Assembly (NCBI GenBank): GCA_902580335.1
Contig: CACHKE010000002.1
Coordinates: 1-64,000, forward strand
DNA length: 64,000 nucleotides
From: an uncultured Pelagibacteraceae bacterium
GTDB taxonomy: Bacteria > Pseudomonadota > Alphaproteobacteria > Pelagibacterales > Pelagibacteraceae
Reading direction: 5' to 3'
The position numbers and the translations under genes were made by a program. Each line of letters starts with the position of its first letter. Position 1 is the stretch's first letter. Below the pieces are notes generated by a model. That model worked only from the letters and a program-made list of their open reading frames with translations, had not been told where the DNA came from and searched no databases. Below, in pieces: positions 11,491-14,735 of the stretch.

Positions 11491-12405
11491 TTGAAAAAAA
11501 AAATTTTAATAATTTCTGGTGGTATTTCTAAGGAGAGAATTATCAGCTTAGAGACTGGAAAACAGGTTGCTAAAGAACTGAAGAAGCATAATTATCTGGT
11601 AAGAACATGCGAACCAGATAAAGATTTATTATTAACAATAAAAGACTTCAAACCTAATTGCATCTTTAATGCTCTACATGGTCAGTTTGGTGAAGATGGA
11701 TACATACAAACAATATTAGAAACAATAGGAATACCTTACACACATTCGGGTGTTATTGCCTCTGCTAAGGCAATGGACAAAGAAATTTCAAAAAAAATAT
11801 TCTTAAAAAATAAAATTTTGACACCTAAATATTTTGTTTATAATTTTGATAAAACTAATAAGGAACTTATAAGTTTTGTAAAAAAGAAATTCAATTTTCC
11901 AGTTGTAATTAAACCAATTAATGAGGGCTCTAGTGTTAATGTCTATATATGCACAAAAAATGATCTATTAAAAAACTTAAAATTTTTAAAAGATTACAAA
12001 AAAGTAATGATAGAACAATTTATTCCTGGACGAGAAATTCAATCAGCTATAATTGGAAAGAAGAAACTTGGAGCAATCGAGCTAAAACCAAAGAGAAAAT
12101 TTTATGATTATCAAGCAAAGTATAACTCTAATGCAAAGACCGAACATATTATTCCAGTCGATTTATCAAAAAAAAAATACAAAACTCTTATGAACATAAC
12201 TTTAAAAGCACATAATTTGATGGGATGTAGAGGAGTTACAAGATCAGATTTTAAATATTTTAATGGTAAATTTTATCTTTTAGAAATTAATACACAGCCT
12301 GGAATGACAAAACTATCTTTAGTTCCAGAGATATCAGCGTATATTGGAATTAATTTCATAAATTTAATTAAATTAATTTTAAAAGATGCATCTATTGATA
12401 AGTAA
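11491..12405 (+). CDS. ddl: D-alanine-D-alanine ligase (TTG start)
   Basis: ATP-grasp ligase: ALHGQFGEDGYIQ, EINTQPGMT; dcw position. Confidence 0.94.
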   Translation: MKKKILIISGGISKERIISLETGKQVAKELKKHNYLVRTCEPDKDLLLTIKDFKPNCIFNALHGQFGEDGYIQTILETIGIPYTHSGVIASAKAMDKEISKKIFLKNKILTPKYFVYNFDKTNKELISFVKKKFNFPVVIKPINEGSSVNVYICTKNDLLKNLKFLKDYKKVMIEQFIPGREIQSAIIGKKKLGAIELKPKRKFYDYQAKYNSNAKTEHIIPVDLSKKKYKTLMNITLKAHNLMGCRGVTRSDFKYFNGKFYLLEINTQPGMTKLSLVPEISAYIGINFINLIKLILKDASIDK

Positions 12406-13060
12406 AAAAATTACAATTTACTTATTAATGTTTTGTTTTCTTGTATCAATTAACAATATTTCATTAATTAATATCAGTTTTCCAAAAATCGAAAATATAG
12501 AGATAGTTGGTTTAAATATAAATGAGAGAAAAAAAATTGAAAGTATGGTTAATGAAGCAAATTTTAAAAATATTTTTTACGTAGATAAACAATATTTACA
12601 AAAAAAAATTAATTCAATTAAAATCATAGAGCATTTTGAAATATTCAAAAATTATCCTTCAACTCTAAAAATATTTATAAAGGAAGCAAAAATACTTGCA
12701 CAAACGAAAAAAAATAATTCCAATTATTTTATTGGATCAAATGGAAAATTAATTCTGAATGATTATTCAAATTCTAATCTGCCATTTGTGTTTGGTGATT
12801 TAGATGTTAAAGAATTTCTTAAATTTAAGAATGAAGTTGATAAATCAAACTTTGATTTTAAAAAAATAGTAAAACTATATTATTTCAAATCAAAAAGATG
12901 GAATATTGAAACACCAGAAGGATATTTGATAAAATTGTCGAGAAATGATGTCAAAAAAGATCTAAACTTATTTGTTCGTTTATCTAATGAAGATAAATTT
13001 AAGAATGAATTAGTAATTGATTTCCGTCAAAAAGATCAAATAATATTATATGGTAAATAA
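12386..13060 (+). CDS. ftsQ: Cell division protein FtsQ (POTRA domain)
   Basis: 224 aa; N-terminal TM then POTRA-like IENIEIVGLNINERKKIESMV; position between ddl and ftsA-like. Confidence 0.82.
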   Translation: MHLLISKKITIYLLMFCFLVSINNISLINISFPKIENIEIVGLNINERKKIESMVNEANFKNIFYVDKQYLQKKINSIKIIEHFEIFKNYPSTLKIFIKEAKILAQTKKNNSNYFIGSNGKLILNDYSNSNLPFVFGDLDVKEFLKFKNEVDKSNFDFKKIVKLYYFKSKRWNIETPEGYLIKLSRNDVKKDLNLFVRLSNEDKFKNELVIDFRQKDQIILYGK

Positions 13061-13751
13061 TTCAGAAAATAAAATTTTTCTTTTTTTAGGGATTAATAAA
13101 TTTTCGATTGTTGCAATAAATTCCATTAATGAGTTTGTTTATAAAGAAGAAAAATTCATAAGTAATCAAAATAATCAAATCGAGTTAGATTTTTTAGATA
13201 GTTTCCTAAATGAAAATATTTTTAAGATAGAAAAAAAACTCAATGAATTTGTCGAAAATATTTTTTTGATTATTGATCATCAGAATATTTTTTCAATTCG
13301 TTTATCTATCAAAAATAAATTTGATAATATTATTATTAATTCAAATTCTATACATAAATTGATATTAGAAGCAAAAAGTTGCTGCAACAAAACCTTAAAA
13401 GATCTTGATATTCTTCATATGAAGATTGATAAGTTTTATATTGATGGAACTTATTTTGAAACTTTACCAGAAAAAAAAAATTGTAATAATCTTTCTATTG
13501 AAGTCAGTTATTTATGTATACCAAAAAGGATCTCAAAAACTATTGAAGATGCTCTCAGAAAATACCAAGTATCTTTGGATAAAATATTGAGCCTAAATTA
13601 TTTAAATAGTTTTTTAGATGATAAAAACGATAATTTATATGTAATGGCACAAAAAATCTTAGATGGTTTTAATGAAAATGAGGTGCTTGTCACTAATAAA
13701 TACTCAAAAAAAATGGGATTTTTTGAGAGATTCTTCAATTTTTTTAACTAG
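13050..13751 (+). CDS. ftsA: Short, divergent FtsA-like protein (1A/1C-like region retained, 2A/2B region absent)
   Basis: Position after ftsQ; DLDILHMKIDKFYIDG resembles the FtsA 1C segment, SYLCIPKRISKTIEDALRKYQVSLDKILS resembles the following FtsA segment; only 233 aa. Confidence 0.65.
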   Translation: MVNNSENKIFLFLGINKFSIVAINSINEFVYKEEKFISNQNNQIELDFLDSFLNENIFKIEKKLNEFVENIFLIIDHQNIFSIRLSIKNKFDNIIINSNSIHKLILEAKSCCNKTLKDLDILHMKIDKFYIDGTYFETLPEKKNCNNLSIEVSYLCIPKRISKTIEDALRKYQVSLDKILSLNYLNSFLDDKNDNLYVMAQKILDGFNENEVLVTNKYSKKMGFFERFFNFFN

Positions 13752-13814
13752 CTCGTATTTTCTTGTAATATTTGTTGTTTTTAAATTTAAAGATTACCAG
13801 ACTAAAAGTTTTGA

Positions 13815-14735
13815 GTGTCTTTATTAAACCAAAAAACTATCAAAAATTCTGTATCTTTTAGTGGAATAGGTCTTCACTCTGGAAAACCAGCTAAGATTTG
13901 TGTCAAACCTTCAAGTCCAGATAGTGGCATTGTATTTAAAAGAATAGATTTAAAAAACAACAATCTAATTTACCCAAATTTTATGAATGTGACTAATACA
14001 GCTTTGAATACTACTATTAGTAATAGTAATGGAGTGAAAGTTTCAACTATCGAGCATTTAATGGGGGCTTTGTTTGGAATTGGAATCGATAATGCATTGA
14101 TTGAAATTGATAATGAGGAAGTTCCAATTTTAGATGGTTCAGCGAAAGTTTTTATTGAGAAAATATTAACAGCAGGTTTAGAGCTTAGTAATAAACCTAT
14201 TAAAATAATTAAGATTAAAAAAAAAATTGAATTTAAAAACGGTGATAAATTTATTTCAATTGAGCCTTCAAAATTAAGTTTGGACATCGATTTTGAATTA
14301 AAATATCAAAATAAAATAATTGGGAATCAAAGAAATAAGATTAATGTCTACGAGGATGATTTGACAGAAGTTTTTAATTCTAGAACTTTTTGTTTGTATG
14401 AGGATATCGAAGCTATCAAGAAAAAAGGTTTAGCAAAAGGTGGGAGTTTAGAAAATGCTATAGTGGTCAAAAGTGATAATGTGTTAAATCCCGAGGGTTT
14501 AAGAAATTCAAAAGAGTTTGTTAATCACAAAATTCTTGATTGTATTGGCGATTTATATACTACAGGTTATAGGATTATAGCTAGTGTAAATTGCTCTCAA
14601 GGGGGCCATTATCTAACGAATAGTTTGTTAAGGAAAGTATTCGAAAATAAAGATAATTTTTCTATCATCGAAATTCAAGAAAGAACACTACCTCATACGC
14701 TAATCAATAGAAGTTTATTGAGATCGATAGCTTAA
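13815..14735 (+). CDS. lpxC: UDP-3-O-acyl-N-acetylglucosamine deacetylase LpxC (GTG start)
   Basis: FSGIGLHSGKPAKI, EHLMGALFG, EVPILDGSA, NHKILDCIGDL. Confidence 0.96.
   Translation: MSLLNQKTIKNSVSFSGIGLHSGKPAKICVKPSSPDSGIVFKRIDLKNNNLIYPNFMNVTNTALNTTISNSNGVKVSTIEHLMGALFGIGIDNALIEIDNEEVPILDGSAKVFIEKILTAGLELSNKPIKIIKIKKKIEFKNGDKFISIEPSKLSLDIDFELKYQNKIIGNQRNKINVYEDDLTEVFNSRTFCLYEDIEAIKKKGLAKGGSLENAIVVKSDNVLNPEGLRNSKEFVNHKILDCIGDLYTTGYRIIASVNCSQGGHYLTNSLLRKVFENKDNFSIIEIQERTLPHTLINRSLLRSIA

Follow-up and report, generated by a model that had tools for sequence, protein, structure and literature searches.

The window analysed here, 64,000 nucleotides of contig CACHKE010000002.1 from an uncultured Pelagibacteraceae bacterium, carries between ftsQ and lpxC a gene for a protein of 233 residues, which starts with ATG, overlaps the 3' end of ftsQ by 11 nt at its own 5' end and stops 63 nt before the start of lpxC (Table 1). 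The identities of the neighbouring FtsQ, LpxC and Ddl are backed by Pfam, and the placement is in agreement with a first-pass annotation made from the sequence, which had reported an FtsA-like gene here and whose quoted FtsA-like segments are all found in the translation. The order ftsQ-X-lpxC, the usual position of ftsA in the dcw cluster, is present in every readable locus, with short and with full-length genes. The named relatives, SAR11 Pelagibacteraceae represented by single-cell genomes and MAGs, have an LpxC that is 73-97% identical. The ftsZ gene is located around 15 kb upstream of ftsA (about 15.5 kb in relatives; positions 1513-2454 of contig C13 in genome G000), ahead of the murein genes and not after ftsA, so that the usual ftsA-ftsZ pair is split in Pelagibacterales. 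The GC content is 20% for ftsQ and 22% for ftsA, against 28.5% for the window. Contig ends fall inside ftsA much more commonly than nearby, with 19 of 80 contigs beginning at most 700 nt upstream of lpxC and eight ftsA copies cut by contig ends in a survey of the order; low GC may be the cause, though other stretches are equally low.

Table 1. Genes and protein segments at the ftsQ-ftsA-lpxC locus (positions in the window).
Feature	Position	Strand	Basis
ftsQ, 224 aa, adjoining short ftsA upstream	12386..13060	+	Pfam POTRA_1 2.1e-08, FtsQ_DivIB_C 7.8e-06
Short ftsA, 233 aa: subdomains 1A and 1C plus membrane anchor	13050..13751	+	Profile searches, hhalign, AF2 model, Foldseek, tail HMM
Subdomain 1A, first part, residues 8-75; phosphate-1 position FLFLGINKFSI without Asp; conserved E61-K62	13071..13274	+	AF2 secondary structure, column conservation; approximate boundary
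Subdomain 1C (SHS2-like), residues about 78-157	13281..13520	+	Register to E. coli 1C, AF2, Foldseek; approximate boundary
Return to 1A, residues 159-187: helix, strand, short helix	13524..13610	+	hhalign (stops at residue 189), AF2
Excision junction, residues about 188-195; ~140 residues of 2A+2B absent	13611..13634	+	Tail HMM and comparison with full-length model
Last 1A helix, residues 196-204; homologue of helix 329-343 in full-length FtsA of HTCC1062	13635..13661	+	AF2, tail HMM
C-terminal amphipathic helix MGFFERFFNFFN, putative membrane-targeting sequence; invariant F225, F229	13713..13748	+	Sequence, AF2, homology to full-length C-terminus
lpxC, adjoining short ftsA downstream	13815..14735	+	Pfam PF03331 2.4e-94

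The 233-residue protein gave no domain match in Pfam, and the NCBIfam FtsA model TIGR01174 matched it at 15.3 bits (E 0.0078), below the equivalog cut-off of 175.85 bits, along a single diagonal that pairs residues 71-189 with model positions 71-189. The same cut-off is also missed by most full-length FtsA proteins of the order, 2 of 61 genomes passing it, and the model matches 9 of 12 short members with a best E-value of 2e-10. When a profile of 12 short sequences was compared with all PDB sequences, the four distinct FtsA sequences took the top four places, in register, including residues 72-195 of E. coli FtsA. Using hhalign, the short form was aligned to full-length FtsA of the same genus with 99.9% probability (E 8e-35), over residues 5-190 only. 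The AF2 model, computed from a 22-sequence alignment, reached a pLDDT of 85 and a pTM of 0.79 and has the fold of FtsA domain 1; its first 19 Foldseek matches are all FtsA, followed by PilM and GspL, and the best is the FtsN-bound FtsA chain of V. maritimus (7q6i_B; TM 0.67, RMSD 2.9, 187 columns). Model and Foldseek matches both contain the 1C (SHS2) subdomain inserted in 1A. An identity as PilM or GspL was rejected, as the FtsA matches outrank both and the locus is one of division genes. The 233-residue reading frame is a derivative of FtsA, as the first-pass annotation had suggested and as profile comparisons and the model agree.

To delimit the absent part we compared the short form with the full-length FtsA of HTCC1062 (we take genomes G066 and G067 to be HTCC1062 and HTCC7211, and G012 to be probably HIMB5), whose AF2 model (pLDDT 83) is that of a complete FtsA with a last helix at residues 329-343. 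An HMM of the last 45 residues of 32 short forms finds residues 326-369, the extreme C-terminus, of sister-clade full-length FtsA with an E-value of about 1e-16, and recovers the same place (8e-05) when the amphipathic helix is left out; between the short protein of G073 and the full-length one of G141 the last 44 residues are 59% identical. A MAFFT placement of the short tail on a strand of 2A was ruled out by this HMM. Since the short tail matches the full-length C-terminus, the missing piece corresponds to residues about 187-326 of the full form; on the HTCC1062 model this covers the entire stretch that separates the final helix from the last 1A helix ahead of phosphate-2, namely 2A and 2B. 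Residues 159-187 of the short form stop where phosphate-2 and 2A start in full-length FtsA; the 1C limits in Table 1 follow those we presume for E. coli 1C. The segment for 2A and 2B has been excised in frame, and domain 1 (1A with its last helix, and 1C), a linker and the membrane-targeting helix remain.

Domain 2 is thereby absent from short FtsA in sequence and in model and present in HTCC1062, and with it are absent phosphate-2, the adenosine site and the FtsZ-tail pocket. The phosphate-1 Asp, found in 24 of 25 full-length proteins, occurs in none of 32 short forms, so that neither phosphate motif of the ATP site is left; Arg18 is likewise found in 0 of 32, while E61, K62, H123 and Y184 are held at 94-100%. 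By sequence and by homology to the full-length protein, the short form keeps the amphipathic C-terminal helix, a putative membrane anchor. Lacking domain 2 and the ATP site, features that define FtsA, it is an FtsA-derived variant and not a bona fide FtsA. The internal loss of 2A/2B with retention of the anchor had been proposed in the first-pass annotation, and tail HMM and model bear this out; its statement that phosphate-2 and everything beyond are missing holds for phosphate-2 and has to be corrected for the last ~44 residues, which comprise the final 1A helix, the linker and the amphipathic helix. The retained 1A helix, the loss of the phosphate-1 motif and the frequency of the short form in Pelagibacter go beyond that annotation.

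The distribution of the short form was assessed in an order-wide sample of 197 genomes, with slot sizes counted from the listing. In the genus of the window, 67 frames measure 220-245 residues and 31 measure 368-401; eight more genes are cut by contig ends and two are frameshifted (G012, G184). Among the listed matches, those from other genera of the family and from the sister family are full-length, at ~380-420 residues, except G078 (216 residues) and G089 (320 residues), both at contig ends. In the 60 genomes with a whole dcw cluster the slot falls into two separate size classes, 220-244 and 368-410 residues, the frameshifted G012 reading as 75+174. HTCC1062 has the full-length FtsA and HTCC7211 the short form. 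Still shorter forms (76-179 residues) are all cut by contig ends, and an apparent second full-length FtsA in G033 proved to be a chance match in a frame for a DacC-like D,D-carboxypeptidase. Eight genomes of the genus gave no ftsA match; six of them also lack LpxC, which indicates a contig gap, and two (G071, G082) have it. Among 80 LpxC-anchored named SAR11 loci, the short form occupies every readable slot but one, which is frameshifted. That some contigs stop inside the gene might suggest an assembly artefact, or a deletion confined to one genome; nevertheless, the short form is present in single-contig genomes (G067, G062, G063) and in dozens of single-cell genomes, and its occurrence in 67 independent genomes and nearly all of the named loci means that it is not an assembly error, leaving this explanation with a negligible probability. 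The conservation of the intact frame likewise rules out a frameshift, in line with the earlier view that no random frameshift is involved. Full-length FtsA in close relatives, which the first-pass annotation would have read as a sign of an assembly error or local pseudogene, does occur in the HTCC1062 clade, but it does not overturn the finding, since dozens of species from three lineages carry the short form intact.

In 11 close pairs of clade A (see below) the NG86 dN/dS of short ftsA has a median of 0.18 (range 0.14-0.22), against 0.21 for ftsQ and 0.07-0.10 for lpxC, ddl, murC and ftsW in the same pairs. These substitution patterns indicate that short ftsA is under purifying selection, a fast-evolving but functional gene; conservation across syntenic SAR11 loci and selection had been proposed as checks on the first-pass annotation, and both uphold it. 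A dispensable remnant of a stepwise loss of FtsA in Pelagibacter would also evolve fast, and identity between clades is about 30%, the short ftsA of G012 and AG-916-A16 are frameshifted, and the full-length ftsA of G010 has an in-frame stop at its domain border. We consider such decay improbable, given a dN/dS in close pairs similar to that of ftsQ, 67 intact frames of near-constant length, the retention of E61, K62, H123, Y184 and the membrane-targeting sequence, and an excision that leaves the domain intact; the frameshift of the HIMB5-like G012, moreover, falls within a T7A8 run, a context in which indel errors are frequent. The two frameshifts may reflect sequencing error, slippage or decay. 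The G010 stop (locus L031), a single TAA at codon 184 of an otherwise full-length gene, falls exactly at the border of domains 1 and 2, and may mark the onset of domain loss or be an error.

A tree of nine concatenated dcw proteins places the short forms in three groups: A (23 species, including HTCC7211 and the window), B (G073, G110, G009, G139) and C (five species), with the full-length HTCC1062 clade as sister of A at 100% SH-aLRT. Monophyly of all short forms is rejected on this tree (p-AU 3e-5), as is that of A+B (2e-4), and it is rejected too by FtsZ, LpxC and FtsQ (0.0014), a set that partly overlaps the nine proteins; a single origin by vertical descent is therefore ruled out by the flanking genes, and the excision must have recurred or spread by recombination. 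Of two ftsA domain-1 trees, one unites the short forms (95/95) and the other is undecided, and neither rejects a grouping of A with the HTCC1062 clade (p 0.09 and 0.15), which keeps transfer by recombination in play. Between murC/ftsW and the ftsQ-ftsA-lpxC stretch, dS in close pairs shows a steep increase resembling that at the border of a recombination or hypervariable tract (positions 12386-14735 of the window, and loci L275-L331 in synteny); for G133/G087 it is 0.16 in MurC, 0.68 in Ddl, 0.95 in FtsQ, 1.15 in FtsA and 1.78 in LpxC. This rise makes recombination credible. The trees thus suggest either two to three parallel excisions with a near-identical outcome, or fewer excisions together with recombination of the ftsA allele.

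The C-terminal peptide of FtsZ, EIPAFLRRQ, is unchanged in 28 of 28 short-form and 25 of 26 full-form genomes, one full-form genome having EIPAFLRKQ; no co-evolution of the tail with the form of FtsA was seen. Profile searches of 21 genomes gave no match for ZipA and none above cut-off for SepF. The sole SPOR-domain protein detected (L337, L335-L345) is an RlpA-like lipoprotein of ~250 residues, which rules it out as an FtsN partner of the 1A-1C cleft; with the SPOR matches so explained, the complete Pelagibacter genomes, of either form, yielded no recognisable bitopic FtsN. The extracellular domain of FtsX was not found, a result that is uninformative for alphaproteobacteria because the FtsX_ECD profile fails in the Caulobacter control too. 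Diverged SAR11 proteins may escape the SepF, ZipA, SPOR and FtsX profiles. A domain 2 encoded by a separate gene was also rejected, the other TIGR01174 matches in G000 and the complete genome G012 having MreB-like (~350 residues) and DnaK-like (~650 residues) lengths.

The site for the FtsZ tail is in subdomain 2B of FtsA (structure 4a2a). In characterised FtsA, the longitudinal filament contact joins IIA and IIB, the lateral contact of double filaments is made by IC, and the FtsN tail is bound in the IA-IC cleft (PMC7613929). Short FtsA would accordingly have lost ATP binding at the canonical site, the canonical longitudinal polymer contact and the 2B pocket for the FtsZ tail. As the parts for membrane attachment, lateral contact and tail binding are kept and those for ATP, the longitudinal polymer and FtsZ are gone, we favour, at a probability of roughly 55%, a nucleotide-free membrane adaptor. 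Such an adaptor, monomeric or laterally associating through 1C-1C contacts, would offer the 1A-1C cleft and the face of 1C to the cytoplasmic tails of membrane proteins in the divisome, and FtsZ tethering would have passed to another protein that still reads the unchanged FtsZ peptide. Against this reading stands the search for a ligand of the cleft, which turned up only the RlpA-like SPOR lipoproteins described above.

The main alternative, which we hold to be possible at clearly lower odds, is that short FtsA still tethers FtsZ through a newly acquired surface of 1A/1C or of the linker, having dropped only ATP control and polymerisation. The invariant FtsZ tail of all short-form species fits this reading as well, the other known tethers (ZipA, SepF) were not found by our profiles, and the membrane-targeting sequence is kept; against it, the known tail site is gone with 2B, and full-form species conserve the tail just as well. 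Since FtsZ tails have other binding partners too, this conservation is not specific. It is quite unlikely that the missing half is made up by partnering, with lateral 1C self-association or joining with MreB restoring an actin-like filament: 1C is a lateral contact in FtsA double filaments (PMC7613929) and MreB-length profile matches are present, but the added interface has neither sequence nor structural sign, and, judging from column conservation, the surface that once faced 2A/2B appears eroded.

Among known systems, canonical FtsA (TIGR01174, PF14450/PF02491) shares with the short form the slot after ftsQ in the dcw cluster, the 1A+1C fold and the C-terminal amphipathic helix, with synteny establishing orthology to full-length FtsA of the same genus; the short form differs in having ~60% of the length, a score under the NCBIfam cut-off and neither 2A/2B, the phosphate-2 and adenosine motifs nor the phosphate-1 Asp. 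PilM, the FtsA-like type IV pilus protein bound to the PilN tail and the next fold match after FtsA, resembles the adaptor proposed here in using a 1A-1C cleft as the site for the cytoplasmic tail of a bitopic partner, but it keeps 2A/2B and ATP, its fold match is weaker, and the short-ftsA locus has no pilus genes. The cytoplasmic domain of GspL/EpsL (type II secretion) is an FtsA/PilM-related adaptor of about 225 residues that, to our knowledge, does not act as a polymerising ATPase; it differs in domain composition, is part of a bitopic protein and reaches a Foldseek TM of only 0.38, and there is no such secretion system here. Laboratory deletions of the membrane-targeting sequence or 1C in E. 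coli FtsA show that the parts of FtsA are separable; among those we found, however, none drops 2A and 2B while keeping domain 1 and the membrane-targeting sequence.

Polymerisation, ATP turnover and 2B-based FtsZ tethering by FtsA are regarded as central to how FtsA-using bacteria divide. In our search no publication on SAR11 FtsA was found. Short FtsA is a naturally selected FtsA without the structural bases of all three; it occurs in the ocean's most abundant group of bacteria, where sister species with the full-length protein serve as controls. Rather tentatively, at somewhat below even odds, we propose that much of Pelagibacter divides with an FtsZ ring that has neither an actin-like ATPase polymer nor a known FtsZ tether, FtsA having been cut, perhaps repeatedly, to a nucleotide-free domain-1 adaptor while another protein reads the FtsZ tail. 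The loss of this half of FtsA in many Pelagibacter species calls into question whether the division ring of bacteria has to be fixed to the membrane by an actin-like polymer. Two cultured strains, presumably HTCC1062 with the full and HTCC7211 with the short protein, lend themselves to direct comparison, which makes it testable whether the indispensable function of FtsA is the 1A-1C adaptor or the polymer, and by what other means FtsZ may be held to the membrane.
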